The translations under genes and the position numbers were made by a program. Shown piece by piece: positions 6,154 to 34,712 of a stretch of 34,712 bases of DNA. Every line of letters starts with the position of its first letter. Position 1 is the first letter of the stretch. Origin of the DNA: Dehalococcoidia bacterium (GTDB lineage Bacteria > Chloroflexota > Dehalococcoidia > UBA2979); assembly GCA_003599735.1 (NCBI GenBank), contig QZJI01000046.1, forward strand, positions 1 to 34,712, in the 5' to 3' direction. The notes under the pieces are model-generated. The model did no database searches, had not been told where the DNA came from, and was given only the letters and a program-made list of their open reading frames with translations.

Positions 6154-6864
6154 CTACAGCAACGTCCCGTCCCGCCGGTCCTCGACCAGCGCGATCTCGC
6201 CCATCCCCAGTTCGTCCCGGACCGCGATGAGCGACTCGACGCAGGCCTCCGGGCTGCCCCACCCGCTGGCGCGCACCAGTTGCGCGACGCCCTCGCCGCT
6301 CTCGGAGAGTGCCGGGAACTTGCGGTTGAACTCCTTGCGGAGGCCCGCCCACAGCTCCTCCGGGTGGTCGAGGGCGAAGCGGGCATAGAGCAACGCTCCG
6401 AAGACGTGGTTCGGCGTCAGTACCTCGTCCCAGTCCTTCGAGGCCTGTCGCAACAGGTCCTTCATCCCCTGGTGGCGCTGTTCCGTCTCCCAGCGGGAGT
6501 CGAGGCCCAGCGGCGCGAGACGCGTCTCCGCCTCCGGCGCGAGGATGAGTTCGCGCAGCGCGTGGCGCAGCATCCCCTCGCCCTCCACCTCGGCCTCCCC
6601 CGGCACGACGTCCGGGTAGCGGTCGAGCGTCTGGCGGACGTGCTGCAGCGCGACGCCGAGGGCGTGCGCGAGGGCATGGGTCGGGATGCCGTTGTGCAGC
6701 GAGATCACGACGACGCCCGATTCGTCCCAGTCGACATCGGAGAGCGCTCCGCCCTCGAAGGCTTCGACGCGGAGTGTGTTCTCTGTCTCCGCGCGGAGGC
6801 GCTCCTCGATCTCCTGGAACAGCGGCTCGATGGCGTCGCCGATCTCTTTGCCGATGACCTTCAT
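6154..6864 (-). CDS. Unknown protein with a degenerate HExxH-like site
   Basis: I do not recognise this 236-residue protein by function. A helix around residues 63-77 reads THALAHALGVALQHV. This resembles the HELGHALQH zinc-peptidase helix, but the Glu and second His of HExxH are replaced (H-A-L-G-V). The following segment, with ELILAPEAETRLAPLGLD near 105-125, is also reminiscent of small bacterial gluzincin-like proteins. If that relationship is real, this is an inactive relative. No signal peptide or membrane segment is seen, and the composition is acidic and helical. The ATG at 6864 is preceded by a purine-rich AAGGGGGCGGGG. It is the last gene of the - strand run, 55 bases after the Fpg/Nei-like glycosylase gene, and is convergent to dapA. 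Confidence 0.75.
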   Translation of the reverse strand: MKVIGKEIGDAIEPLFQEIEERLRAETENTLRVEAFEGGALSDVDWDESGVVVISLHNGIPTHALAHALGVALQHVRQTLDRYPDVVPGEAEVEGEGMLRHALRELILAPEAETRLAPLGLDSRWETEQRHQGMKDLLRQASKDWDEVLTPNHVFGALLYARFALDHPEELWAGLRKEFNRKFPALSESGEGVAQLVRASGWGSPEACVESLIAVRDELGMGEIALVEDRRDGTLL

Positions 6865-6919
6865 CCCCGCCCCCTTCAGTGCCCGCGTCGTGGTCGGGCC
6901 TTCTGAGCTTTGTTGGAGC

Positions 6920-7735
6920 CTACTCGAAGAGCGGCTGACAGGTCAGGCAGTAGTTTGTCTCAGAGCCGCTACGTACCTGTCCGCGGATTTCAGTGCCGCA
7001 CTTCGGACAGGGTTCGCCGGCGCGCCGGTGCACCTTCAGGTGCTGCCGCCACTCTTCTTTCTTCCCCAGCCCTTCGCCCTGTACGGTGGCATCCACGATG
7101 GCGATCGACTCCTTCAGCACTTCGCGCATCGAGCGGTAGAGGCGGCGGAGATCACCCTCGTCCATTGTCGCGCGCCGTCGGTGGGGGTGGAGCCCGGCGG
7201 CCCACAGGATCTCGTCCGAGTAGGCGTTGCCGATCCCGGCCATGAACTCCTGGTTGGTGATCGTCGCCTTGATCTGTCCCCGGCGGGGTTTGAGGCGCGT
7301 GAGGAATTCCTCCTCGCTGATCGCCATCGCGTCCGGCCCGAGCGTCGCCATCTGCGGGACCTGGTTGAGCCCGTCACCGGGGACGAGGTACCAGCGTCCC
7401 ATCCGGCGCATGTCGGAATAGCGCACCTCATGACCGTCGTCGAAACGCAGCACGACGCCGAGCATCGCGGGTTTGCGCGTCCCCTTCTCGACCCAGTGGA
7501 AGCGCCCGGTGAGCATCGGGTTCACGACGAGCAGCCGTCCGTCGTCCACAAACCAGATGAGGAACTTCCCCATCCGGTGGATCTCGCCAAACCCGTGCCC
7601 AGCCAGCGTGCCGAACTCCTCCGCGCCCGTCCGCACGAGCCACGGCAACGGCGCCTCTGCCTCGGTGATCGTGAGACCTTCGAGGCGCGGCATCAGGTAG
7701 TGGCGGATGGCTTCGAGGTCGGGGATCTCCGGCAT
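6920..7735 (-). CDS. mutM: Fpg/Nei-family DNA glycosylase
   Basis: Fpg/Nei enzymes excise oxidised bases and nick the abasic site. The catalytic N-terminus is MPEIPDLE (Pro becomes residue 1 after Met removal, followed by Glu). K57 lies in MGKFL, the helix-two-turn-helix is FMAGIGNAYSDEILWAAG, and the C-terminus has the zinc finger C-x2-C-x16-C-x2-C (CPKC...CLTC). Length 271 is typical. The N-terminal IPDLE rather than LPEVE places it in an Fpg/Nei-like subgroup, so 8-oxoguanine specificity is likely but not proven. It starts 12 bases after the pheA stop and belongs to the same - strand run. The protein ends five residues past the last zinc cysteine. Confidence 0.9.
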   Translation of the reverse strand: MPEIPDLEAIRHYLMPRLEGLTITEAEAPLPWLVRTGAEEFGTLAGHGFGEIHRMGKFLIWFVDDGRLLVVNPMLTGRFHWVEKGTRKPAMLGVVLRFDDGHEVRYSDMRRMGRWYLVPGDGLNQVPQMATLGPDAMAISEEEFLTRLKPRRGQIKATITNQEFMAGIGNAYSDEILWAAGLHPHRRRATMDEGDLRRLYRSMREVLKESIAIVDATVQGEGLGKKEEWRQHLKVHRRAGEPCPKCGTEIRGQVRSGSETNYCLTCQPLFE

Positions 7736-7747
7736 CGACGGGCTCGG

Positions 7748-8578
7748 TCAGTCCCCTGCGGCCCAGCGCGGGTACGAGCCGAGGACGACCAGCCAGTGCG
7801 CGATCACCTCGACCTCGCGCAGGGCATCCGCCAGACCGGGGTCGGTGCGGTGGCCCTGGAGGTCGAGCCAGAAAATGTACGTGCCGAGCTGCCGCCGTGT
7901 CGGCCGAGACTCGATCCGTGTCAGATTGATCCCGCGGGAGGCGAACCGCTGGAGTACCTCGACGAGCGACCCCGGACGGTCGTGTGCGGTGGTGAACGCC
8001 AGCGAGGTCTTGTCGGCGCCGGTCGGAGCGTGATCCTCCTGCGCAAGCACCACGAAGCGTGTCGCGTTGCCCGACTCGTCGCCAATGTCGCGCGCGTAGA
8101 TGTGTGCGCCGTAGATCACAGCCGCGCGTTCACCGCCGATCGCGAGTGTCCCGGGCTCTGCCAGGGCCGCCTCGATCGCCGCCGTCGTCGAGAGCGCGGC
8201 CACCGGCTTCGCCTTCGGCGCAAGTCGTGCGAGGTGCTGGCGGCACTGGCCGAGGGCGTTCGGGTGGGAGTAGACGGCCGTCGCCTGTGCCAGTTCGAGC
8301 CCCGTTGCTCCGACGAGCATGTGCTGGATGGGCAGGACGACCTCGCCGCGGATCCGCATGCCCGTCGCCGGGTCGAGGAGGAGGTCGGTGGTCTCGATGG
8401 AGACGGAGCCCTCGATGGAGTTCTCCAGGGCGCAGACGGCGGCATCCGCCGCGCCTGCGCGTACCGCCGCCACCGCGCTGGCAACGGTGGCATGCGGCGT
8501 CAGCTCGGCGGCGGCGTCATAGAGGATCGCCGCCGCCTCGGTATAGGTGCCGCGGGGGCCAAGGTAGGAAAGTCGCAT
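7748..8578 (-). CDS. pheA: Prephenate dehydratase with ACT domain
   Basis: This enzyme converts prephenate to phenylpyruvate for phenylalanine synthesis. It begins with the family start MRLSYLGPRGTYTEAA, contains the NSIEGSV segment, and has the catalytic TRF motif at 173-175 in GNATRFVVL. Residues ~187-262 form a regulatory ACT domain with DRPGSL and IESRPT, the usual phenylalanine-sensing region. There is no chorismate mutase domain, so it is the monofunctional 276-residue type. The reading frame is open further upstream to 8647, but that would overlap the TrkA gene and add residues foreign to the family, so the ATG at 8578 was chosen. Its ribosome-binding site is weak. It sits 58 bases after the TrkA/RCK gene and 12 before mutM. 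Confidence 0.95.
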   Translation of the reverse strand: MRLSYLGPRGTYTEAAAILYDAAAELTPHATVASAVAAVRAGAADAAVCALENSIEGSVSIETTDLLLDPATGMRIRGEVVLPIQHMLVGATGLELAQATAVYSHPNALGQCRQHLARLAPKAKPVAALSTTAAIEAALAEPGTLAIGGERAAVIYGAHIYARDIGDESGNATRFVVLAQEDHAPTGADKTSLAFTTAHDRPGSLVEVLQRFASRGINLTRIESRPTRRQLGTYIFWLDLQGHRTDPGLADALREVEVIAHWLVVLGSYPRWAAGD

Positions 8579-8636
8579 GGCCGGCAGTCTAACGGAGTGG
8601 ATACGAAGGTGTTCGAGTGGGCGGTGGGGAACCCTG

Positions 8637-9308
8637 CTACATCCCATCTTCGACGGTCACCATCGCTCGTACGCGTTGCTCCGCCTCATGCGGGATGACG
8701 GCGATGATCTCGTCGCCGGGGACCAAGACGGTGTCGCCGTCCGGGACGCGCGCGCCCTGCGGGCCCACGACGACCGCGACGAGGACGCCCGAGGGGAACT
8801 TCAGATCGCGGAGGGCGTGGCCGGATACCTCAGCACCGCTCTGTACGCGCATGTCTACGACCTTCAGCCCGGCACTCTGGAGCGCCATCAGCGGGACGAG
8901 CGTGTGCTGCGGCAGGCTGGTCTCGATCTGCGCCATGACGGCGGCTGCCGCGGAGACTGTCGTGGTAATCCCCAGTTTCAGGAAGAGCGCCTCGTTTCGG
9001 GGGTCGTTCACCCGCGCTACCGTGCGCTGCACGCCGAACCAGTGCTTCGCTACCTGGCAGGCGACCAGGTTCGCGCCGTCGTCCGCCGTGACCGCGATCA
9101 CCATGTCCGCGCGCCGGGCCCCGACGCCTTCGAGGAAGGCAATCTCACTGCCGTCGCCATGCACGACCATCTCGCCCAGTTCGTCGCGCAGCTGGGCTGC
9201 GCGCGACGCCGACAGTTCGACGATGGCGACCTCAGTGTCCGCGACCTGCTGGAGTTCGAGCGCGAGTCCGTATCCGACGATCCCGCCGCCCACCACGATG
9301 ATGTACAT
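8637..9308 (-). CDS. trkA: TrkA/RCK potassium-channel regulator (RCK_N + RCK_C)
   Basis: TrkA-type RCK proteins bind nucleotides and gate K+ transporters from the cytoplasm. Residues 1-~130 are a Rossmann RCK_N domain with VVGGGIVG and an acidic ribose-binding position (IVELSAS). Residues ~140-220 are an RCK_C domain ending in PGDEIIAVI. The total of 223 residues is typical for a single-unit TrkA/KtrA. The ATG at 9308 follows the preceding gene's stop by 2 bases, with a GGAGGAC site inside that gene's end. It pairs with the RCK_N-only protein upstream and the UspA and small membrane genes before it. No TrkH/KtrB-type transporter is in the window, so the partner is unknown. Confidence 0.9.
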   Translation of the reverse strand: MYIIVVGGGIVGYGLALELQQVADTEVAIVELSASRAAQLRDELGEMVVHGDGSEIAFLEGVGARRADMVIAVTADDGANLVACQVAKHWFGVQRTVARVNDPRNEALFLKLGITTTVSAAAAVMAQIETSLPQHTLVPLMALQSAGLKVVDMRVQSGAEVSGHALRDLKFPSGVLVAVVVGPQGARVPDGDTVLVPGDEIIAVIPHEAEQRVRAMVTVEDGM

Positions 9309-9310
9309 CG

Positions 9311-9724
9311 CTACTGTCCTCCGGTGGCGTCGAGCAGCGCCTCGTGGGCCAGGTTGATGCCGAACTTGGTCGGGCTAAACGTCTTCAGCCCCAGCCGCGC
9401 GAAGAGCTCAGAGCGCAGGGGGTCGCGCACGCGCGTGACCACGTTCCGCACTCCGTACACCTCCTTCGCCTTTTCGGAGGCAAGGATGTTTCGGTTGTCG
9501 CCAGAAGCGAGCGCGATGAAACAGTCCGCCTGCTCGATGCCCGCCTCGATCAGCGTGCGGTCGTCTGTCCCGGAGCCCACCAGGCGGCGCCCGGAGAACT
9601 CCGGCAGCAGCCTTTGAAAGGCGAACGCGTTGGTATCGAGGATCGTCACCTCGTGTCCTTCGTTCACCAGTTGCTGGGCGAGTCCAGCGCCCACGCGCCC
9701 GCAGCCCATGATCACGACACGCAT
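9311..9724 (-). CDS. TrkA-N (RCK_N) domain protein, single domain
   Basis: This 137-residue protein is a lone RCK_N Rossmann domain: GCGRVG glycine motif (8-13), the ILDTN acidic strand end, and VVTRVRDP typical of the last strands. It lacks an RCK_C ligand-binding domain. The start has a strong GGAGGA site 7 bases upstream of ATG 9724 and the gene is intact, so it does not look like a truncation. Split arrangements, in which an RCK_N-only and an RCK_N/RCK_C protein act together, are known in Chloroflexota and Actinobacteria K+ systems. The 2-base gap to the downstream RCK gene suggests tightly linked synthesis and perhaps a hetero-oligomer (inference). Confidence 0.88.
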   Translation of the reverse strand: MRVVIMGCGRVGAGLAQQLVNEGHEVTILDTNAFAFQRLLPEFSGRRLVGSGTDDRTLIEAGIEQADCFIALASGDNRNILASEKAKEVYGVRNVVTRVRDPLRSELFARLGLKTFSPTKFGINLAHEALLDATGGQ

Positions 9725-23810: not shown

Positions 23811-23840
23811 GGCCTTCTCGCCACGTTGACGGGAGAGCCC

Positions 23841-24839
23841 ATGGCTCAATTCGCCGCTGGCCCCGCGGGTTCAGATCCGCGATCGCATGTGCTCCACCGT
23901 GAGGTGGAGGCGATCCGTGCGGAGGTCGGGCGGGTCATCGTTGGTCAGCAGGGGATGATTGATCGCCTGCTCGTTGTGTTGCTCACGAACAACCATGCGC
24001 TGATCGAAGGCGTCCCTGGCCTGGCGAAGACGCTGGCGGTTTCCACGCTGGCGCGCGCACTCGAATGCTCGTTCTCGCGCATCCAGTTCACACCGGACCT
24101 GCTGCCGGCGGACGTCACCGGGACGTTGATCTTCAACCCACAGGACGCGGAGTTCCATACGCGCCGAGGCCCGATCTTCGCCAACGTCGTCCTCGCCGAC
24201 GAGATCAACCGTGCTCCCGCGAAAGTGCAGTCCGCGCTCCTCGAGGCAATGCAGGAACGCACCGTCTCGATCGGCGGACAGACGCATGCGTTGCCTGACC
24301 CCTTCCTGGTCCTCGCGACACAGAACCCGATCGAACAGGAGGGCACCTATCCGCTGCCGGAGGCGCAGCTTGATCGCTTCATGCTGAAAATTGTCGTCCA
24401 CTACCCAGAGCGTGAGCAGGAGCGTGAAATCCTTGCGCGTGCGCTCGATCAAGAACCACAACAGGCGCATCCGGTCGTCGCACTCGCCGAGATCACACGG
24501 CTCCGCGAGGGGGTGCGTGCCGTCGAGGTGAACGAGCGGCTGCGTGAGTACATTGTCCGCATCGTCGAAGTGACGCGGGAGCCGACACGCTTCCGCCTTA
24601 GTGAGCTGCAACCGCTGCTGGAGTTTGGCGTCTCGCCGCGTGCCGCCATCTTCCTTGCGCGCGCCGCACAGGCCTATGCCTTCCTCGATGGGCGGACGTT
24701 CACCACGCCGGAAGATGTAAAGGCGTTGGCGCCGGACGTGCTCCGCCACCGCCTGATCCTCACCTACGAAGCGGAGGCGCGCGGGGTCGACGCGGACGAG
24801 GTCGCCACGCGGATTCTCGAAAGCGTCGGGATCCCCTAG
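23841..24839 (+). CDS. MoxR-family AAA+ ATPase (first copy)
   Basis: MoxR ATPases act as chaperones that load or activate VWA-domain proteins. Walker A is GVPGLAKT (57-64), Walker B VVLADEIN, followed by [17 protein letters not shown], the sensor-1 region LATQNPIEQEGTYPLPEAQ, and the C-terminal lid with SPRAAIFLARAAQAYA. It has 332 residues from ATG 23841, chosen for the GGGAG site 6-7 bases upstream; a TTG at 23826 is in frame but less likely. It heads a + strand operon with a DUF58 protein, a BatD-like protein and two VWA proteins, the classic MoxR-Bat layout. A second MoxR lies at 33284-34240 on the other strand. Confidence 0.95.
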   Translation: MAQFAAGPAGSDPRSHVLHREVEAIRAEVGRVIVGQQGMIDRLLVVLLTNNHALIEGVPGLAKTLAVSTLARALECSFSRIQFTPDLLPADVTGTLIFNPQDAEFHTRRGPIFANVVLADEINRAPAKVQSALLEAMQERTVSIGGQTHALPDPFLVLATQNPIEQEGTYPLPEAQLDRFMLKIVVHYPEREQEREILARALDQEPQQAHPVVALAEITRLREGVRAVEVNERLREYIVRIVEVTREPTRFRLSELQPLLEFGVSPRAAIFLARAAQAYAFLDGRTFTTPEDVKALAPDVLRHRLILTYEAEARGVDADEVATRILESVGIP

Positions 24840-24847
24840 GGCCAGCG

Positions 24848-25771
24848 ATGACCATCCTCGCCAGGCCGGACACCGAGGACGAAGCACTCACCCTGAGCGC
24901 GGAGGCGCTGGCCCGTGTGCGCGCCATCGAAATCCGCGCGCGGCGGCGCGCTGCCAGCATGACCGCCGGCAACTACCGCTCGATCTTCCGTGGCGCGGGC
25001 ATCGAATTCTCCGAGGCTCGCGAGTACGTGCCCGGTGATGACGCACGACGTATTGATTGGAACGTCACGGCGCGCATGGGCACGCCTTGGGTGAAGGAGT
25101 ACGTGGAGGAGCGTGAGCTCACCGTCGTTTGTGCGGTGGATGTCTCGGCGTCCGCCCTTGCCGCCCGTCCCTCGCGAGGTCGCTTCGAGGCCGCAGCGGA
25201 GGCCGTCGCGCTCCTCGGATTCTCCGCTGCCTTCAACCACGACCGTGCCGGGCTGTTGCTCTTCGATGACGGTGTGCGTTCCTTCATCCCGCCCCGTCGA
25301 GGCGTGCGGCGGGTGACGCGGCTGGTCGGCGATGTCCTGCGCGCGCAACAGTCTGCGCTGGGTCACACGACCGATATCGGAGCGGCGGCGGACTACCTCG
25401 GGCGGGTGCTGCGCCGCCGTTCCACCGTGTTCCTGCTCTCCGATTTCATTGCGAGTGGTTATGAGGAGTCGCTACGCGGCCTCGCACGCCGTCACGAGGT
25501 AATCGCGATCACCATGGTCGACCCGCTGGATGTGGCCCTTCCCGACGTGGGAATTGTCGAAGTCGTGGACGTGGAGCAAGGTGGGCATGTGCTGCTTGAC
25601 TCGTCGAGCGCCCGGGTGCGCGCGGCGTATGCGGAGGCGGCGGTCACCCGTGCCGCGCGCCGGAAGCGCTCACTCGTGACTGCGGGTGTCGACGAAATCG
25701 AGATCTATCTCGACCGCGATGTGACCATCCCGCTTATCTCATACTTCCGCCGTCGAGCGAGGGCAGTCTAA
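24848..25771 (+). CDS. DUF58 protein (VWA-like), cytosolic
   Basis: DUF58 proteins contain a degenerate VWA fold and pair with MoxR ATPases. The DUF58 signature FSEAREYVPGDDARRIDW is at ~55-73, followed by MGTPWVKEYVEERE. The VWA part keeps a MIDAS-like DVSAS (D98), so metal binding is possible. Length is 307 with no membrane segments, so it is a soluble partner of the preceding MoxR, 8 bases upstream. The stop is directly followed, without a gap, by the ATG of the BatD-like gene. Its ribosome-binding site is weak, which suggests coupling to MoxR translation. Confidence 0.92.
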   Translation: MTILARPDTEDEALTLSAEALARVRAIEIRARRRAASMTAGNYRSIFRGAGIEFSEAREYVPGDDARRIDWNVTARMGTPWVKEYVEERELTVVCAVDVSASALAARPSRGRFEAAAEAVALLGFSAAFNHDRAGLLLFDDGVRSFIPPRRGVRRVTRLVGDVLRAQQSALGHTTDIGAAADYLGRVLRRRSTVFLLSDFIASGYEESLRGLARRHEVIAITMVDPLDVALPDVGIVEVVDVEQGGHVLLDSSSARVRAAYAEAAVTRAARRKRSLVTAGVDEIEIYLDRDVTIPLISYFRRRARAV

Positions 25772-26773
25772 ATGCGCAGTGGGCTAGCCCTGTTCGTTCT
25801 GGCAGCTGCACTGTCTGTGCTCACGCCGCGTGCGGCCGGCGCGCAACAGCCGCCTGCGCCGGTTCTCGGCGTTGAGGTCACGATGAACCGTCAGGATCCC
25901 TCGATCGGCGATCGCCTGCTGCTCACACTGCGCGTACGCCACCGCGCGGATGTCGCCGTCACCGCGACGCCTGAGGCGCCCGCTTCCATCGAGTTCGGTA
26001 AGCCGGCCGTGACTACGTTCACCATGCCGGACGGTGCGGTGCAGACGACGGTGACGTGGACGGTGCAGCCATTCGTCCTCGGGCGGGTTCGGCTCAACCC
26101 GTTCCCCGTCGCCTGGGTGACGCAGGATGGACGTACCGGGCGGTTCCAGGTGCAGCCCCCCGATTTCGAGGTCGTCCCGACGCGCGCGCCGGACGATACC
26201 GCCCTGCGTCCGCTGAAGGATCCGGTGACCGTGCCCGGAGGACCAGCTGCATGGCTGCGTCCGATGTTGTTCGTGCTCGCCGTTGCCGGTGTACTGGCCC
26301 TCTTCATAGGGGCAGGCATCCTGATCGCCCGCCGCCTGCGTCCGTTCTTCCGTCGCATCCGCGGCGGCATCGATGTGGAGCCGGCACCCGTGCCGCTCAC
26401 GGCAGAGGCTTCCGCCCGCGAATCCCTCGATGGCCTCGCGGGCATGACGTTGATCGAGCCTGCGGCGTTTGAGCGGTACTACGGCACGATCGCCGCGGTC
26501 GTACGCCGCTACCTCTCGGAACGCATCGGTTTCAACGCCTACGCGCTCACCACCGAAGAACTCGATCATCGCATGACCGCGAATGGTGTCGACCGCTGGC
26601 AGGCACGCCTCGTCGGTGGCCTGCTTGAACGTTGTGACGCCGCCGTCTACGCGCACCGCTTCCCGGATCCCGCCTCCGCTGACCACGATCTCACGGTCGC
26701 CTACGAGATTGTAGAACTGTCGAGGCCCGGCGTGGTGTCAACTGGTGTGATCCCTCACGGGGCGACCGCATGA
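25772..26773 (+). CDS. BatD-like exported/membrane protein
   Basis: A 333-residue protein with a Sec signal peptide (residues 1-24, cleavage near AAGA|QQ), an extracytoplasmic beta-rich domain (~26-150, with VEVTMNRQDPSIGDRLLLTL), one transmembrane helix (~168-192), and a cytoplasmic C-terminal helical domain with YYGTIAAVVRRYL. This architecture and position match BatD-type proteins of MoxR-Bat operons, though BatD proteins are usually longer, so I call it BatD-like only. It starts immediately at the DUF58 stop and overlaps the next VWA gene by four bases (ATGA, 26770-26773). Confidence 0.8.
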   Translation: MRSGLALFVLAAALSVLTPRAAGAQQPPAPVLGVEVTMNRQDPSIGDRLLLTLRVRHRADVAVTATPEAPASIEFGKPAVTTFTMPDGAVQTTVTWTVQPFVLGRVRLNPFPVAWVTQDGRTGRFQVQPPDFEVVPTRAPDDTALRPLKDPVTVPGGPAAWLRPMLFVLAVAGVLALFIGAGILIARRLRPFFRRIRGGIDVEPAPVPLTAEASARESLDGLAGMTLIEPAAFERYYGTIAAVVRRYLSERIGFNAYALTTEELDHRMTANGVDRWQARLVGGLLERCDAAVYAHRFPDPASADHDLTVAYEIVELSRPGVVSTGVIPHGATA

Positions 26774-27729
26774 TCCCCGGTCTGAGTGGCATCTCCGGTT
26801 TCGAGGGCTTCGCGTTCGCGGCGCCGGCCCTGCTGTTGTTACTGCCCGTGGTGGCTGGGCTCGCGACCATCGGCCTCTTGAGGCGGCGGGCTACGACAGT
26901 GATCGCAGACGGCTCGCTCGCCCGTGCTGCGGCAAGGCCGACTTGGCGACTGCGGCTCCGCTGGCTCCCCGGCGTGTTGCGTACGGTCGCCATCGCTCTT
27001 CTCGTCGTCGCCATCGCCCGGCCGCGTCACGGGAACGCCGTTGCCGTCGCGCTCGAGGAGGGTGTCGATGTTGTGCTCTCGGTCGACGTCTCCTCCTCGA
27101 TGACCCAGCTGGCGGTACCGCGGGTGACGCGCCTGATGGCTGCCCAGCAGGCGGTCGCGGAGTTCGCGGATCGCCTCGATGGTGGTCGGATCGGCCTCGT
27201 CGCGTTCCAGTCAAGGGCGCTCACGCTCTCACCGCTTACCGCCGACCACCAGGCGCTGAAGCAGCGCGCGAAGACGCTTGAGCCTGGCCTGGTGGAGGAC
27301 GGCACGGCGATCGGCCTTGGGTTGGCGGAGGCGCTCACGTTGCTGGGTGACTCCCCTGCCCGCAGCCGTGTCGTCGTGCTCCTCAGTGACGGCGAGAACA
27401 ATGCGGGGAATGTGGAGCCGGCGGACGCCGCGCGAGTCGCGCAGGCTCTCGGCATCCGCGTCTACACTGTCGCCTTCGCCGGCACGACTGGCGCCGCGTC
27501 TGGGCTGCGGGCGATGGCGATCAGCACTGGCGCACAGTCATACGACGCCCGCACGCCAGACGAATTGAAGAAGATCTACGCGGACATCGGCAACCTTGAA
27601 CGCTCGCGTCTTGGCGAGCGGAAATTCGTCGGTTTTACCGAGTACGGTCCGTGGCTCGCGGGGCTGGCGGTCCTCGTACTCCTGACCGAGGGCGCGCTAC
27701 GCGCGACCTGGTTGCGGAGGACGCCGTGA
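26770..27729 (+). CDS. BatA-like VWA membrane protein
   Basis: A 319-residue VWA protein anchored by two N-terminal transmembrane segments (~15-37 and ~66-82) and one at the C-terminus (~292-308). The VWA domain has an intact MIDAS: D106-x-S-x-S110 (DVSSS), Thr in EDGTAIG and Asp in LLSDGENN. It matches BatA of MoxR-Bat clusters, which are associated with envelope stress tolerance in other bacteria; the function here is inferred. The stop overlaps the GTG start of the following VWA/TPR gene (GTGA, 27726-27729). Confidence 0.9.
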   Translation: MIPGLSGISGFEGFAFAAPALLLLLPVVAGLATIGLLRRRATTVIADGSLARAAARPTWRLRLRWLPGVLRTVAIALLVVAIARPRHGNAVAVALEEGVDVVLSVDVSSSMTQLAVPRVTRLMAAQQAVAEFADRLDGGRIGLVAFQSRALTLSPLTADHQALKQRAKTLEPGLVEDGTAIGLGLAEALTLLGDSPARSRVVVLLSDGENNAGNVEPADAARVAQALGIRVYTVAFAGTTGAASGLRAMAISTGAQSYDARTPDELKKIYADIGNLERSRLGERKFVGFTEYGPWLAGLAVLVLLTEGALRATWLRRTP

Positions 27730-29570
27730 ACACACTGACGGCTCTGTTCGGCGAGCCGCTCGCACTATGCTTGCTGGCCGCCGTCCCGGTGGCTGTCCTG
27801 CTGGCGCGCCACGAGGCTAGGCGCCGTCATGCCGCACAGGTGGCGTTGGGCGGTCCCGCCGGAGGTCGACACCGCGAGGTGGTCCGCCGCGCCGGTGCTG
27901 TTTTGCTTGTTGGGGCCATCGCGCTGGCGGCGCTTGCGTCCGCGCGGCCACGCTGGGGATTGCAGGAGGCCCCACTCGAGCAGCGCGGCGTCGATGTCGT
28001 CATCGTGCTGGACATCTCACGGTCGATGTTGGCTCAGGATGTCGTGCCATCGCGCGCGCAGGCGTCCGCCGCGGCGGTCGGAGAACTCCTCACGCACCTC
28101 CAGGGCAACCGCGTCGGTCTCGTCACCTTTGCGGGCTCGTCATTCCCTCGGTCGCCGCTCACGCTGGACATCGAGGCTGTGCGTACGCTCGTCCAGCGTG
28201 CGCAGGGCGAATCCTCGTTGGTGCGGCCAGGTTCCGACCTCGGCGGCGCTGTTGAGGCGGCGCTCACGCTGTTGGATGTTGAGGATCGTGCGACGACGCA
28301 GGTTGTGCTCGTCGTTACGGACGGTGAGGTGCAGCAGGCGGACATCACCGCAGTGGGCGCGGCGGCTGGCAAGGCACGCGGCCAACAGGTGCGTGTCTTC
28401 GGCGCGTTCGCCGCGACCGAAACCCCCATCGCTCTCCCAGCGTCGAGTGGTGGCACCGATATCACGCGTGGCCAGCGCACGCCGCTGGTCGCGCTCGCGG
28501 AACAGACCGATGCGCGGGTGCGGGACGTAGCGCAGGTACCGGGCCTCGCGGTGGAGTTCCGCCGCCTCCAGCAGACGCGGTTCGCCGAGACATCGCGGCA
28601 GGGAAGCGTGGAGCGGTTCCAGTGGTTCGCCGGTGCAGCACTGGCGTTCATCGTCTTGCCGCTACTACTGCCTCGGCCGTCCAGCCGGCGACCGTCAAGG
28701 CGGTGGCGTGGGTTCCGCCGCTCGCCCCGGGCCCTCCGGTCGGGCGTGCTCGGGATGCTGCTGTTGACGTTGATGCTGCTCTCCGGCTGCACCGCATTGC
28801 TGGGTACACCCGTCTATCGTGCCGTCGCGGAAGGTAACCGCCTCTATGCCGAGGAGAGGTACGAGGAAGCCCTGGCCGCGTACGACCGCGCCAGTGCGGT
28901 CGACCCGAAGAGCCCAGCCATCGCGTACAACCGCGGCCTCGCGCTGCATCGGCTCACTCGTTATAACGAGGCGTACCGCGCGATCGTTGGTGCGATCAAT
29001 GAGGCTTCGGACGTGCAACTTGCTGGGCGGATGGAGTTCGCTGCGGGGAATACCGCGGTGATGCTGGAGACCTGGACGGACGCGCGCGATCGGTACGTCG
29101 CGGTGCTGCACCTTGACCCCACGGACGCGGCGGCGAAGGCGAACCTGGAACTCGTGCTCTCACGTACCAACACGGGGCAGCGGCCAAGTCAAGGCAACGA
29201 CGGCGATACCCCGCAAAACGGGGACAGCGATCAACAACCACCGCTGGACGGGCAATCCAGCGACGCCCCGCAGCAGCAGCCTGGTCCCACGGGTGGACAG
29301 CCGGGAGGCCCGCAACAGGGGGAGGGAGCGGACAGCCAGCCGGGGCAGTCACCTCAACCGGGTGGCGACGCTGACACTGACGGTGCGCCCGCGGCGCCTA
29401 CCACGTTCGCTGAGGCACAGGCCGCGCTTGAAGCGGCGCTTGGGGCGCTAGGGCCAGAGGTGTCGCGTGAGCAGGCACTTCGGATCTTGGAGCTGGCCCG
29501 CCAGGCGAACTCACTAGACCGCCTGCCGAGGTCGACGCCGCAGGATGGAGGGCCACCGCCGCCCCGCTGA
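27726..29570 (+). CDS. BatB-BatC fusion: VWA domain plus internal lipobox and TPR
   Basis: This 614-residue protein joins two Bat components. Residues 1-~320 are BatB-like: two N-terminal membrane segments, a VWA domain with MIDAS D96-x-S-x-S100 (DISRS), VVTDGE, and a third membrane segment. A strongly basic stretch (~325-345) leads into a hydrophobic run ending LMLLSGC, a textbook lipobox with C355. Then come TPR-like repeats (~365-465; YEEALAAYDRASAVDP), a long Gln/Gly/Pro/Asp-rich linker (~475-560) and a helical end. The start is GTG 27726, with GGAGG 5 bases upstream. No stop or frameshift separates the two parts. Under the positive-inside rule the VWA and TPR parts would both lie outside. 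It ends 10 bases from the stop of the convergent transglutaminase-like gene. Confidence 0.88.
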   Translation: MNTLTALFGEPLALCLLAAVPVAVLLARHEARRRHAAQVALGGPAGGRHREVVRRAGAVLLVGAIALAALASARPRWGLQEAPLEQRGVDVVIVLDISRSMLAQDVVPSRAQASAAAVGELLTHLQGNRVGLVTFAGSSFPRSPLTLDIEAVRTLVQRAQGESSLVRPGSDLGGAVEAALTLLDVEDRATTQVVLVVTDGEVQQADITAVGAAAGKARGQQVRVFGAFAATETPIALPASSGGTDITRGQRTPLVALAEQTDARVRDVAQVPGLAVEFRRLQQTRFAETSRQGSVERFQWFAGAALAFIVLPLLLPRPSSRRPSRRWRGFRRSPRALRSGVLGMLLLTLMLLSGCTALLGTPVYRAVAEGNRLYAEERYEEALAAYDRASAVDPKSPAIAYNRGLALHRLTRYNEAYRAIVGAINEASDVQLAGRMEFAAGNTAVMLETWTDARDRYVAVLHLDPTDAAAKANLELVLSRTNTGQRPSQGNDGDTPQNGDSDQQPPLDGQSSDAPQQQPGPTGGQPGGPQQGEGADSQPGQSPQPGGDADTDGAPAAPTTFAEAQAALEAALGALGPEVSREQALRILELARQANSLDRLPRSTPQDGGPPPPR

Positions 29571-29580
29571 TCCGCGACGG

Positions 29581-32013
29581 TTAGCCGCGCGAGGCTCGCC
29601 CCGCCGCGCGCGTGCGCGCACCGGGCATCGACCGTACTCCAGCACGCTGGGCGCGCGCACCGCCAACCGGGGCGACGTACCGTGGACGCTCCGGCGTTTG
29701 CCAGAGCCGCAGGATGCGCTGTGCGATCCGTCTCCGCAGGATGGCGCTCACCGTGCGGTAGTCACGGTCAGCGGCGGTCACATCTCCCTCAGATGTAGTG
29801 GAGGCCTCACGAGCGTACCGCTGATGCGTGTACGCCCGTGCGAGGGCGCGCAGTGCGGCCGGTTCACCAACAGCTGGGATGAGAGCCTCGGCCGCTTCGG
29901 TTGGTGTGCATGCGGGGTCAGGTGCGAGGCCCGCGAGATCCGCGAGCCGCATGACCTTCGACCAGCGGGTGAGCGGCGCGGTTAAGCCGCGGAACGGCCC
30001 TTCCCACCACCACCTCGCGATGAGCATGACCACGAGGCCGATCGCCGAGATGACAAGCAACGACGCCAGAATGCGTGCGAACAGGCGGCGACCTGCGCCG
30101 GTGATCGTGACCGGCGTGATCGAATCCTGGAGGGCGGGGTCGCCGGCGTCCAGGTCGTCGAAGAGCAACTCATCCAGTTCGCTGGTGTCGCGTTCCCCTG
30201 CGGCGCTGGCCAATGCTGCGGTGTCGTCGCCGGGGCGCGTCACCACGCCACGCGAGGGTGTCGGGTTGAACTCCACCCACCCGAGGTTTGGGAAGTAGAC
30301 CTCGGGCCATGCCCAGGCGCGCTGTTCGGAGACGACGTAGACCCTGTCGGTGCTGGCGAAGTCGGCAGAGTCAAGCACGAACCCGGCCGCGAGGCGCGTC
30401 GGGATGCCCACGGATCGCAGCATGACCGCCATCGCGCTGGCGAAATGGTCGAAGTGACCGGCCTTCTCGTCAAAGAGGAAGAAGGCGACCGCGTCTCGCC
30501 GAGGGCTCGGACGGTCCGGTTCCAGCGTGAAGATATACGACCCGCGTAGGTAGGTCTCCACGCGCCGGACCGCTTCGTACGGTGTGGCGACAGTGCCGAT
30601 GACCTGCTTTGTCAGCTCGGCGACCTCCGGCGGGGTGCTGGCCGGCAACTGCGTGTAGATACGGAAGATGTCATCAGGGTACGCCGTCCCCGCGTCTTGC
30701 AGCGTATTGATTGCCGCCGCGGAGACCGCGCCCACCGTGGTGTATTCGCTGCCCGGTCGCACTTCTTTGTCCGGTGTGATCGCGGCTGGCTGTGCTCCCG
30801 GCGCGCCGATGATCCGCCCCGGCTTGTCGGCCGCCAGCGGGTCGCCGGGCGCGAGGAGCCGGCGGGGCGGGCCACCCTCACCCACGACCGTGATCTTTGT
30901 TTTCATCGGCCGCCGCACCAGTGCGCGACTACCCTCGGTGCCCTGCTCGGCCTGCTCGATCGTGAGGTCCGCGGGTTTCGCTGCAGCCTGGGACAGCTTC
31001 CATCCTGTGCCGGTGTATTCGTCGTACACCGCCCCACGTAACGTCATCGGCTCCGGCGCCTCGACGCGAAAGATGGGGATGCCGTCCAGCGTCACGGGCC
31101 CCTGGAGCGGCAGCGTGGCCCCGAGCGAATGTACCGGTAGTGACCTCTTCGACGAGATGCCGACGAATACGCCACCGGATCCCTCGAACCGCTGGGCAAT
31201 GGGCGCGATCAGTGTGTTCCACCCGCGCGCCACCGGGCCCCAATTGTTAGCGGTGGGCACGGTCCACGCCGCGAACACCAGCACCCCGGCCACGATCGAG
31301 GCGACCAGCAACACCTCTACCGACATGAAGTCTGGCGGCTGCACCCGCTGGTGTCCCCAACGCTCGACGGCGCGTGTGTACTGCAGTCGTGTCACTAACA
31401 GCACCGAGGCGATGACGAAGAACACGACGGCGAACGACGGCTGGCCGGGCAAGTACGAGATGTTCGTGAGCAGCACGAAGCCGCCCGGTACGATGGCCGC
31501 CCAGGGATTCTTCCAGCGCACCGTCGACCACACGGTCACGTATGCGACGGCGAAGACGGCGAAGACGAGCACTACCACGAATGGCAAGGGGTCAGTGGAG
31601 AAGTCCTTGGTCAGCAGCGCCTTCCACCAGTCCTGTAGCCGGAGCCAGAACTCCGACCACCGCTGCGTCCAGCTGTCCTTGCCGTCGATGTCGACGAGCA
31701 GCAGCGAGCGCAGCACCAGGAACAGCGTCGTACAGGCCCCGGTCACCAATCCGAGGACGGAGCCGGCCCAGCCCGACACCGGCGACTTCGCGACCAGCCA
31801 GCCGAACACCAGTCCGTACAGCGCCGTCGCCACCAGCGAGGGCATCTCGTCCACCCAGTCCGCGGACTGCAATGAACCGACGACGGGCACCATCAGGAAC
31901 AACAGCAGCGTGAAGGTCAGCCATTCTTCCCAGGAGAGCCACCACGGCCGCTGTGGGCGGTCGTCCTCACGTGTTGCCGGCGCGAAGTAGTCGTCGAGCG
32001 CGCGCACGGCCAT
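29581..32013 (-). CDS. Membrane transglutaminase-like protein, catalytic triad lost
   Basis: This 810-residue TgpA/DUF3488-type protein has about seven transmembrane helices in residues 30-255, an extracytoplasmic region with a transglutaminase-like domain (~490-600), one transmembrane helix (~645-668), and a cytoplasmic C-terminal DUF4129-like domain. In the transglutaminase core, the expected Cys is F521 (AGHFDHFASAMAVMLRSVG), the His of HAW is W567 (RAWAWPEVYFP), and the Asp of DPTP is N583 (WVEFNPTP). All three catalytic residues are replaced while the surrounding fold residues are well kept, so it is a pseudoenzyme, not a decayed gene. It is translationally coupled to the DUF58 gene (TGATG overlap at 32013). 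A role as binding or scaffold protein at the envelope is inferred. Confidence 0.9.
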   Translation of the reverse strand: MAVRALDDYFAPATREDDRPQRPWWLSWEEWLTFTLLLFLMVPVVGSLQSADWVDEMPSLVATALYGLVFGWLVAKSPVSGWAGSVLGLVTGACTTLFLVLRSLLLVDIDGKDSWTQRWSEFWLRLQDWWKALLTKDFSTDPLPFVVVLVFAVFAVAYVTVWSTVRWKNPWAAIVPGGFVLLTNISYLPGQPSFAVVFFVIASVLLVTRLQYTRAVERWGHQRVQPPDFMSVEVLLVASIVAGVLVFAAWTVPTANNWGPVARGWNTLIAPIAQRFEGSGGVFVGISSKRSLPVHSLGATLPLQGPVTLDGIPIFRVEAPEPMTLRGAVYDEYTGTGWKLSQAAAKPADLTIEQAEQGTEGSRALVRRPMKTKITVVGEGGPPRRLLAPGDPLAADKPGRIIGAPGAQPAAITPDKEVRPGSEYTTVGAVSAAAINTLQDAGTAYPDDIFRIYTQLPASTPPEVAELTKQVIGTVATPYEAVRRVETYLRGSYIFTLEPDRPSPRRDAVAFFLFDEKAGHFDHFASAMAVMLRSVGIPTRLAAGFVLDSADFASTDRVYVVSEQRAWAWPEVYFPNLGWVEFNPTPSRGVVTRPGDDTAALASAAGERDTSELDELLFDDLDAGDPALQDSITPVTITGAGRRLFARILASLLVISAIGLVVMLIARWWWEGPFRGLTAPLTRWSKVMRLADLAGLAPDPACTPTEAAEALIPAVGEPAALRALARAYTHQRYAREASTTSEGDVTAADRDYRTVSAILRRRIAQRILRLWQTPERPRYVAPVGGARAQRAGVRSMPGARTRAAGRASRG

Positions 32014-33269
32014 CAGCGTGCCTCCGGCATCGCGCGGCCGAGCGCGGGGTCGGCGCCTGAGGAGAGCACGCGGCGCAGGTCATCGTGCGCCTTCACCGTG
32101 TATGCGTAGATCCCGGCGGCGGCCAGCGTCCCGTATACCGTGAGCGGACTGGGCGCGGGCCCGAATGTGTCTGCCTCGATCAGGACGGCTGCCACTTTCA
32201 CGCCACGCGCCCCCAGCGACATCAGTGTGTACGCCCATTGTTCGTCTGTGGAGGGTGTCACCACTACGACGGTCGTGTGACGGCCGAACCGGCGTGACTC
32301 TTCGACGAGCAGGGCCGAGAGCGACGCGTCGCCCACGGCGCGGGCGAGCGCGAGTGATTCGAGGGTGCGCGCGAAGTGGCTCTGTCCTCGGTCCGGCTCG
32401 TCTACTCGGAGGTCATCGCCGAACGTGATGAGGCCGACCGACCGGTTCGCGTTAACGAAATGCCGCACGACGGCCGCGGCGACCTGCACGGCCGCCTCCT
32501 CCGTGCCATCCTCGCCTTCGCCGACGTGGTGCCGTGCCTCCAGGTCGAGCACGACCCAGATGTCGGACGCGGGGTCGAGCTCAAACTGCTTCACCATCGG
32601 CTCGCCTTTGCGGGCCGTGGCGGGCCAGTGGATCCGATTGAACGAGTCGCCCGGCGCGTACTCACGCAGCCCGGCTACGTTTGGTGTCACGTTGTGCGTG
32701 CGGCGTCGAAACCGGCCCTCGCCCGGCAGGTTTGCCGGAGGGATCGCGAAGTTCGGCAGCTCCGGGGCGTTCGGGTAGACGAGGACAGTCGTGCGTTCGC
32801 CGAAGGTGCGGCGGAACGTGAAGAAGCCGAACGGGTCGCTCGCGGAGACCGTCACGGGTCCGAGTGTGTATACGCCGCGCACACGTGTCCGGGTGCGGTA
32901 GGCCCACGACCGTACGCCGCGCGCCCCCATCGTGAACACGCGTTGCGCGCTGTGGCCGGGGATTGAGGACGGATCCTCTACCTCCAACCATACTTTCGGC
33001 AGGATCGAGCGGCTGCGTACGGTGATCTGGCCTTCGATCGGTTGGCCCTGCGTCACGCGCTGGGACGTGCGCTGCACCTCCACCTCCAGGCTGTTGGCCA
33101 TGGCGCGGGTCCAAAAGTACAACAACGGGATCGCGACCACGATCACATAGGCGATGCGGAACAGGAGCCAGAATCCCGTGGCGAACCCGACCACGACGCA
33201 GACCGCCGCGACCACCGCCGCCAGCGTGACGTTGCCGCGCCGGCCGATTTCGCGCAGGAAGCGACGCAC
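32013..33269 (-). CDS. DUF58 membrane protein (second copy)
   Basis: A 418-residue DUF58 protein with two N-terminal membrane helices (~14-55) and an Ig-like beta region (~60-170). The DUF58 core has REYAPGDSFNRIHWPATA near 200-218. Unlike the + strand DUF58 protein it lacks the MIDAS-like DxSxS: the equivalent strand reads VVLDLEARHH, so metal-dependent adhesion is not expected. The start is GTG 33269 with GAGGG 4 bases upstream, 14 bases after the MoxR stop. Its stop shares one base with the transglutaminase-like start. MoxR-DUF58-transglutaminase is a well-known triad in Actinobacteria, Chloroflexi and Proteobacteria, without an established common function. Confidence 0.92.
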   Translation of the reverse strand: MRRFLREIGRRGNVTLAAVVAAVCVVVGFATGFWLLFRIAYVIVVAIPLLYFWTRAMANSLEVEVQRTSQRVTQGQPIEGQITVRSRSILPKVWLEVEDPSSIPGHSAQRVFTMGARGVRSWAYRTRTRVRGVYTLGPVTVSASDPFGFFTFRRTFGERTTVLVYPNAPELPNFAIPPANLPGEGRFRRRTHNVTPNVAGLREYAPGDSFNRIHWPATARKGEPMVKQFELDPASDIWVVLDLEARHHVGEGEDGTEEAAVQVAAAVVRHFVNANRSVGLITFGDDLRVDEPDRGQSHFARTLESLALARAVGDASLSALLVEESRRFGRHTTVVVVTPSTDEQWAYTLMSLGARGVKVAAVLIEADTFGPAPSPLTVYGTLAAAGIYAYTVKAHDDLRRVLSSGADPALGRAMPEAR

Positions 33270-33283
33270 CGTGCCCTCGATGC

Positions 33284-34240
33284 CTACGCGCCGCCGCGGG
33301 CGCGCACGCCTGGCACCGGTACGCGTCCCAGGACTTCCTCTACGATCTGCCGCGCGTCGATCTCCCGGACGCGCGCGCTCGGGCTCACGATTACGCGATG
33401 TCCCAGCGTGGCATACGCCAGCAACTTCACGTCGTCCGGCTGCACGAAGTCGCGCCCGTCCAGCATCGCGAACGCCTGCGTCGCGCGCATCAACGCCAGC
33501 GACCCGCGCGGGGAAGCGCCCAGGTATGCTGCCTCATGCTCACGCGTCGCGTTCGCCAGGCTCACGATGTACTGCTTGATCAGCGGGTCGACGTAGATGC
33601 GCCCCACCGCGTCCTGCAACTCGATTAGCTCCGCCGGGGAGACGACCTCGCCCAGTGTCTCGATCGGGTGGCGCTCCTGCTGCGCGTCCATGATCAAGAC
33701 CTCGTCGGTCGCGCTGGGGTAGCCGAGGTGGATACGCATGAAAAAGCGGTCGAGCTGCGCTTCCGGCAGCGGGAACGTGCCTTCGTACTCAATCGGGTTC
33801 TGGGTCGCCATCACCATGTTCGGCCGTGGGAGGAGGTGTGTGACCCCGTCGACCGTGACCTGGTGTTCCTCCATCGCCTCGAGAAGCGCGGACTGCGTCT
33901 TCGGCGTCGCGCGGTTCACTTCGTCGGCCAGGACAATTTGGGCAATGATCGGGCCCGGCCTGAATATGAACTCCCCGGTGCCCTGGCGGTAGACCGAGAC
34001 GCCAGTCACATCCGTGGGCAGTAGGTCCGGCGTGAACTGGATGCGGGAGAACGAACACCCGGTGGACTTCGCCAGCGCCCGTGCGAGCATCGTCTTGCCG
34101 ACGCCGGGGACGTCCTCGATTAATAGGTGGCCGCGGCACAGTAGCGTCACGAGGGCAAACCGCGCCTCATCCGTCTTGCCGATGATCACGCGCTCGACGT
34201 TCGCCAGGATGCGCTCCGCGACGAGTTTCGGGGCTTCCAT
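33284..34240 (-). CDS. MoxR-family AAA+ ATPase (second copy)
   Basis: A 318-residue MoxR ATPase with Walker A DVPGVGKT (43-50), Walker [42 protein letters not shown] and the lid [16 protein letters not shown]. The frame is open upstream to 34639, but only ATG 34240 has a strong ribosome-binding site (GGAGGAG, 4 bases upstream), and it gives the family start. It heads the - strand MoxR-DUF58-transglutaminase operon. Compared with the first MoxR copy it has a classical GVGKT P-loop rather than GLAKT, so the two are paralogs of different MoxR subgroups and are probably each dedicated to their own neighbours. Confidence 0.95.
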
Positions 34241-34379
34241 CTGCTCCTCCACCTGGGCCGCCGGGCCCGGGGGTGCCATCCGAGAAATCAGAGGTGGCTG
34301 CTGGTGCCTCGGATCCGCCGAGGGTGCGATTGCCTGAGGGATCACAACCGGAGGCCGCGTGCCAGTTGTGAACAGCGGG

Positions 34380-34388
34380 AGTATAGCA
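34380..34388 (-). promoter_or_regulatory. Extended -10 promoter of the second MoxR operon
   Basis: On the - strand, TGC followed by TATACT (34388-34380) forms an extended -10; TATACT matches consensus in 5 of 6 positions. A TTCACA lies 20 bases further upstream, long for a -35. The predicted leader to ATG 34240 is about 130 bases, with no recognised regulatory element. Confidence 0.55.
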
Positions 34389-34412
34389 ATCCGGCATACC
34401 GCATCTGTGAAA

Positions 34413-34440
34413 TTTTCGCTCTCCGGACGCGCGGTACGAT
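34413..34440 (+). promoter_or_regulatory. Possible promoter of the Tat-exported protein gene
   Basis: TACGAT (34435-34440) is preceded, at 16 bases, by TTTTCG (34413-34418). The box belongs to the recurring TA[C/G][A/C]NT set. It is back-to-back with the extended -10 of the second MoxR operon, about 50 bases away. Confidence 0.4.
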
Positions 34441-34488
34441 AGCCATCCACAGCCATCCATCGACTGTCTGGACGCTTCGGGAGGCACC

Positions 34489-34712
34489 GTGGATCAGGCG
34501 TCCCCCCGGCGGTGGTCACGTCGCTCCATCCTGCGCACCGCCCTCGCCCTCGGGGTCGCCGTCCCTGCCAGCGCTGCCGGCCTCGTGACCCTGCGTCGTC
34601 GCGGGGGCATGCCTCCCGTCGCTGGCGAATCGGCGCCACCGAGCCCGGCCAAGAGCACCAGCCGCCCGGCGTCCTCCACGCCCACCTCGACCTCGACCTC
34701 GACCCCGACCCC
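34489..34712 (+). CDS. Tat-exported protein with Ser/Thr/Pro linker (3' truncated by window)
   Basis: Only the first 74 codons are in the window. The start is GTG 34489 with GGGAGG 4 bases upstream. The N-terminus carries a twin-arginine signal, SRRSILR (near 10-16), then a hydrophobic core ([17 protein letters not shown]), matching the S-R-R-x-F-L-K pattern with Ile at the aromatic position. After a short basic segment the chain becomes a Ser/Thr/Pro/Ala linker with TSTSTSTPT at the end. Such a linker usually tethers a folded extracellular or lipid-anchored domain, but that domain lies beyond the window, so the function is unknown. It is divergent from the second MoxR operon. Confidence 0.7.
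34684..34712 (+). repeat. Hexanucleotide repeat in the linker of the Tat protein
   Basis: ACCTCG is repeated three times (34684, 34690, 34696), then ACCCCG and a cut-off ACCCC at the window end. In frame it encodes the alternating Thr-Ser/Thr-Pro linker. Copy number changes would lengthen or shorten the linker without shifting the frame. Confidence 0.75.

Follow-up and report, generated by a model that had tools for sequence, protein, structure and literature searches.

A TgpA-like membrane protein of a Dehalococcoidia bacterium with a replaced transglutaminase triad, and the clade to which it belongs

The window analysed here, i.e. the whole stretch of 34,712 nucleotides (contig QZJI01000046.1, assembly GCA_003599735.1), comes from a Dehalococcoidia draft bin (2.0 Mb, 82 contigs, 70% complete) and encodes a TgpA-like membrane protein whose frame runs uninterrupted from an ATG start (Table 1). 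Two Pfam models exceed their curated cut-offs and follow each other in the order of the TgpA family, namely TgpA_N (35.9 bits, cut-off 30) and Transglut_core (78.4 bits, cut-off 23). A DUF4129 match (21.8 bits, below the cut-off of 24.8) lies at the expected C-terminal place, where the structure model has a helical domain, and no NCBIfam model matched the 810-residue protein. The gene (tgpA) is the last of a MoxR-DUF58-tgpA operon. A second, Bat-like operon (23826-29570, (+)), which encodes MoxR, DUF58, a possibly BatD-like protein, a vWA protein and a vWA/TPR protein, converges on the tgpA operon (29581-34639, (-)) with a gap of 10 bp. Elsewhere in the window, two long ORFs (6686-8698 (+); 8577-9617 (+)) have no Pfam match at E 1e-8 and are surrounded by ordinary genes (EAL/GGDEF, semialdehyde dehydrogenase, DHDPS, SOR/SNZ and SNO, an amino acid kinase with ACT domains, and DNA polymerase III alpha).

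Table 1. Features of the tgpA operon in the window.
Feature	Position	Strand	Basis or remark
TgpA-like membrane protein of 810 aa with F521/W567/N583 in place of the triad	29581..32013	(-)	ORF and Pfam
Cytoplasmic DUF4129-like helical domain, residues 689-739	29797..29949	(-)	Pfam match below cut-off, and model
C-terminal transmembrane helix, residues 640-674	29992..30096	(-)	Model helix 640-674; hydrophobic peak 648-666
Transglut_core domain, residues 466-584; fold kept, predicted to be non-catalytic	30262..30618	(-)	Pfam and model
Codon 583 AAC (Asn), catalytic Asp position	30265..30267	(-)	Alignments
Codon 567 TGG (Trp), catalytic His position	30313..30315	(-)	Alignments
Codon 521 TTC (Phe), catalytic Cys position	30451..30453	(-)	Alignments
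TgpA_N region, Pfam residues 37-400: N-terminal transmembrane helices and first part of the ectodomain	30814..31905	(-)	35.9 bits and hydrophobic segments
DUF58 partner	32013..33269	(-)	Stop codon shares 1 bp with the tgpA start codon (TGATG); no MIDAS-type serines (DLEARH)
MoxR-family AAA+ ATPase, first gene of the operon	33284..34639	(-)	AAA_3 2.4e-62; true start probably well inside the ORF

Among PDB sequences, phmmer recovered a single relative, 6g49, which is the TgpA periplasmic domain (E 4.7e-12). In the alignment (i) GHFDHFA stands opposite GFCAHYA, (ii) AWAW stands opposite AHAW and (iii) FNPTP stands opposite VDPTY, so that F521, W567 and N583 replace the catalytic Cys, His and Asp. 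In the AlphaFold2 model built from an 86-sequence alignment (mean pLDDT 86, about 97 in the core), residue 521 begins a helix (521-534), residue 567 lies on a strand (566-574) and residue 583 comes just after a strand (578-581), which are the places where the triad of a transglutaminase is expected according to this prediction. The alignment and the confident model both confirm the replacement that an earlier note had read by eye from this DNA. With the model as query, the top Foldseek matches were the TgpA structures 6g4h and 6g49 (E 5.4e-14 for 6g4h; target TM-score 0.70-0.71). A relative with a C-H-E triad, folded in the same manner as a control, reached 0.66-0.68 against these structures; the pseudo-domain is therefore no farther from TgpA than an active-type domain is, and the predicted fold is retained. 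By architecture, fold and operon the protein belongs to the TgpA family; by its defining residues it is not a transglutaminase.

The replacement is shared across the family-level group. An alignment of 31 homologs drawn from genomes of this group, which are 34-86% identical to the query, has W567 and N583 in every sequence (31/31); position 521 is Phe in 29 sequences and Ser in the other two, and the presence of the same three residues in 29/31 sequences excludes chance. Four further species of the genus use the same codons (TTC, TGG and AAC), and a pattern scan of genome contigs found four congeners and one Anaerolineae locus only. Selection was estimated as dN/dS by NG86; the absolute values are approximate, since dS ranges from moderate to high (0.2-1.3 in most pairs). 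Within the genus, the transglutaminase core has the lowest values of the protein (0.07-0.10, against 0.09-0.24 in the N-terminal, middle and C-terminal parts), and the DUF58 and MoxR partners are more constrained (0.05-0.09). Across seven same-genus pairs with an FWN triad, core values were 0.08-0.12 in six and 0.35 in one; two FYN pairs gave 0.14 and 0.24, and control pairs with C-H-E or S-H-E triads 0.05-0.11. The core is thus under purifying selection comparable to that of active-type relatives, with no relaxation within the genus. The term "maintained pseudoenzyme" used in the earlier note is well supported: the orthologs carry the substitutions, the frame is intact, purifying selection is strong, no substitute Cys is present (see below) and the fold is retained.

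Sampling across the class showed that the scope of this pseudoenzyme, treated as a single case in the earlier note, had been underestimated. Besides C-H-E, S-H-E and A-H-N triads, the class contains FYN, FFN, FFS, FYS, AFS, PYS, VMA, VLL, SLA, SES and YYD forms. With the three triad columns masked, a maximum-likelihood tree built from 107 sequences places the 72 Dehalococcoidia sequences without the catalytic His, from 14 family-level groups, on one branch (SH-aLRT 100); after addition of other Chloroflexota classes (172 rows) this branch still has a support of 100 and the other classes fall on one side at 99, both trees being quick searches without bootstraps. In these other classes His is kept in 67/67 sequences and C-H-E or C-H-D in 62/67. 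Since the 72 sequences share one branch and all 67 sequences of the other classes have the His, this residue was lost once for the 72-sequence clade; a further, apparently independent loss occurred in L123 (G036), whose ALN triad lies within the His-type group. Two sequences, L110 and L114 (f20), are YYD variants in which six extra residues directly precede the former Cys position (ENQEDGRPIGGYYDYHASS).

Within the pseudo clade, W, Y or F fills position 567 in 68/72 sequences, Phe fills position 521 in 61/72 and Asn or Ser position 583 in 66/72; the residue choice is a biased, not a random, drift. As diagnostic columns of the protein, those of the triad take ranks 2, 3 and 6; for conservation within the pseudo clade as a whole they are only moderate, at ranks 117, 216 and 133 of 721. 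Four clade-specific, conserved residues changed along with the triad, namely W167, I185 and W684 in transmembrane or cytoplasmic parts (W684 immediately N-terminal of the DUF4129-like domain) and G428 in the middle domain. Their joint change fits a rewiring of the protein, with the reservation that any deep split also fixes unrelated differences.

A DUF58 gene is located upstream of tgpA in nearly all loci examined, and MoxR is present in most loci with a flank long enough to show it; this operon structure is what backs the earlier proposal that the protein works with MoxR and DUF58. The tgpA-linked DUF58 proteins of the class have no MIDAS serines, and the second DUF58 protein of the window (24848-25771) has DVSAS. 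The idea that the metal site of DUF58 degenerated together with the triad was considered and rejected, as the MIDAS serines are absent beside active-type and pseudo-type copies alike. The convergent Bat-like arrangement is conserved in the genus, in 23/24 testable loci of the family and in several other groups. In each of the 31 loci that have it, the tgpA copy lacks the Cys; none of 14 C-H-E copies has it, and it was never seen beside an S-H-E copy; a link between the Bat operon and triad loss was nevertheless not retained, because a phylogeny-aware test, with only 8 changes on the tree, was not significant.

The search for an active paralog, suggested in the earlier note, gave one PF01841 match in the genome of the window and one in each of two congeners with an estimated completeness of 96% and 90%. 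Other family members encode extra short soluble PF01841 proteins, of which the two that were read are C-H-D (L038, L064), and one genome (G026) has two FWN copies. No active TgpA-like paralog was found in the family, except for a second, S-H-E copy in G013 (L145), which lies on a short contig, falls outside the pseudo clade and is possibly a contamination or a transfer. Beyond the family, 35 pseudo-type genomes were considered, and the majority of them show just one PF01841 match. The pseudo-type is the sole TgpA-like copy in most of the pseudo-type genomes checked. A separate observation concerns L106 (G040:C60), an open frame of 2166 residues with at least two transglutaminase-core domains, both C-H-E; the TgpA-like copy of that genome is S-H-E.

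This protein has no Cys-His-Asp machinery, yet its fold, frame and operon have been preserved. The explanation we favour, which we hold to be probable, is that a TgpA-family membrane protein has lost the transglutaminase or cysteine-protease chemistry and kept its extracytoplasmic fold as a non-catalytic domain. We infer that the domain has no catalytic activity and that the ectodomain serves a membrane machine of MoxR and DUF58, either by binding a ligand or as a scaffold; the peptide-binding or scaffold role put forward earlier would be plausible. The best reading of its history is that catalysis was lost once, long ago, and that the fold then persisted because it binds or couples within the MoxR/DUF58 complex. 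Mechanistically, the old active-site cleft, with its present aromatic lining (F; W, Y or F), could bind an envelope ligand, which may be a peptide or a partner protein, or serve as a scaffold; the C-terminal transmembrane helix would relay its state to the DUF4129-like domain in the cytoplasm, and there the AAA+ ring of MoxR and the vWA-like DUF58 protein would act as a remodelling machine. Catalysis would then be dispensable for the core job of MoxR, DUF58 and TgpA in this lineage. Several findings count against this explanation: the one same-genus pair with a core dN/dS of 0.35, the soluble transglutaminase-like proteins (PF01841) encoded in some pseudo-type genomes, the modest conservation ranks of the triad columns in the pseudo clade, and the varied triads outside the family (FYN, FFS, PYS, VMA, SES, YYD), which are equally compatible with a relaxed dead site and with a new binding site. 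A bolder version, for the large clade, makes the transglutaminase fold a non-catalytic receptor with an aromatic lining, which holds or senses a ligand of the envelope and passes the signal along the transmembrane helix to MoxR/DUF58, the machine having been rewired around it after a single loss of catalysis. We regard it as a tentative proposal that may well prove wrong; if true, it would make catalysis a dispensable add-on to the core function of the machine.

The strongest competitor, which we consider rather unlikely, is a pure structural scaffold, in which the fold is needed only for the folding of the membrane protein or for the docking of DUF58 and MoxR and the old cleft binds nothing. 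The drift of the triad positions among many residue sets outside the family of the window would suit such a scaffold, as would the clade-specific conserved changes in transmembrane and cytoplasmic parts (W684, W167, I185). However, the core is the most conserved region in both the pseudo and the His-type groups, motifs near the old site (GY.D, ASAM, GIPAR, W569, GW, PTP) stay conserved, and the near-invariant F/W/N of the family suggests a specific role.

The intact fold and surrounding motifs would also allow for an enzyme with a different catalytic set, which is highly improbable. Indeed, the protein has only two Cys (94 and 702), both outside the ectodomain, with none in residues 285-600 (the modelled extracytoplasmic region), and the ectodomain is Cys-free in 71/72 pseudo-type sequences; His 520 and His 523 are off the catalytic position, and W, Y or F at the His column provides no general base. 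The protein thus lacks the Cys-His-Asp/Glu triad of active transglutaminases and transglutaminase-like cysteine proteases, and the alternative active site that the earlier note had named as a possible refutation fails on the Cys alone.

Within the class, Dehalococcoides-type bacteria have no peptidoglycan wall, and several genomes of the sample have neither PBP nor MraY; a loss of peptidoglycan could in principle have removed the substrate, so that the catalytic site decayed. Searches for PBP transpeptidase and MraY in 80 genomes make this barely credible: all 50 pseudo-type genomes tested have matches to both, and the genomes without them carry S-H-E (12) or C-H-E (5) and never the pseudo type. 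The sign is opposite to the prediction, and the idea that peptidoglycan loss made the enzyme dispensable is refuted by the 50/50 count, the single change of peptidoglycan state on the tree being too few independent changes for a statistical claim. On the S-H-E side, copies L098, L102-L105, L113, L120, L128, L130, L135, L138 and L140 are all in genomes without detectable PBP and MraY (12/12 tested), with the extra copy L145, in a genome that has both, as the exception.

Finally, a decaying pseudogene or a sequencing or assembly error, to which a draft genome of this completeness lends some colour, has a negligible probability: the frame is intact, dN/dS is about 0.1 and the protein is conserved across 17 genera, and the identical codons in four other species and the residues shared in the family exclude both decay and error, including the sequencing error or relaxed selection against an intact-triad background that the earlier note had allowed for.

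The MoxR-DUF58-transglutaminase module is widespread, and a natural, long-lived clade of single origin that is predicted to lack catalysis splits the question of its job into two parts. Here, MoxR, DUF58 and the transglutaminase fold would have a joint role other than the cross-linking of proteins by the pseudo-domain, and the molecular machine around the pseudo-TgpA seems to work without its namesake chemistry. The C-H-E, S-H-E, A-H-N and His-less forms within one class offer ready-made experimental steps. Searches of open-access papers turned up no account of an inactive TgpA or of a bacterial pseudo-transglutaminase of this module.

Inactive members of the superfamily are already known in eukaryotes (PMC10318531); the present case is a TgpA-family variant in bacteria. 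Erythrocyte protein 4.2 (EPB42, 8csw), listed as an inactive transglutaminase homolog (PMC10318531), likewise has a transglutaminase fold without catalysis, put to structural use at a membrane, but it is an animal cytoskeletal protein without MoxR/DUF58 partners and not a relative of TgpA, and its Foldseek match is weak (E 0.21, not significant). Rad4/XPC, CC2D2A and FBXO21, which are inactive transglutaminase/papain-like proteins of eukaryotes (PMC10318531), belong to the same superfamily and, as pseudoenzymes, act in binding or as scaffolds in other domain contexts. SipA of Streptococcus pyogenes, a signal-peptidase pseudoenzyme at the surface that has kept its peptide cleft and is needed for assembly (PMC4049620), is an analogue in its way of working only, as fold and family differ. 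NorQD illustrates how a target can be remodelled when a MoxR ring pulls on its vWA partner (PMC13036017); such machines share the MoxR AAA+ ATPase and a vWA-type partner with the window system and offer, by analogy only, a model of force transmission, whereas target and partner differ and the DUF58 protein of the window has no MIDAS serines. The closest known system is TgpA of Pseudomonas aeruginosa (PA2873, downstream of PA2875-PA2874; 6g49/6g4h; PMC3507681), which is critical for viability in that species (PMC3507681) and is the best PDB match by sequence and structure. It resembles the window protein in domain order and ectodomain fold, and its gene is likewise the last of a three-gene unit; TgpA has a Cys/His/Asp triad and a transglutaminase activity measured in vitro, whereas in the window protein all three residues are replaced.
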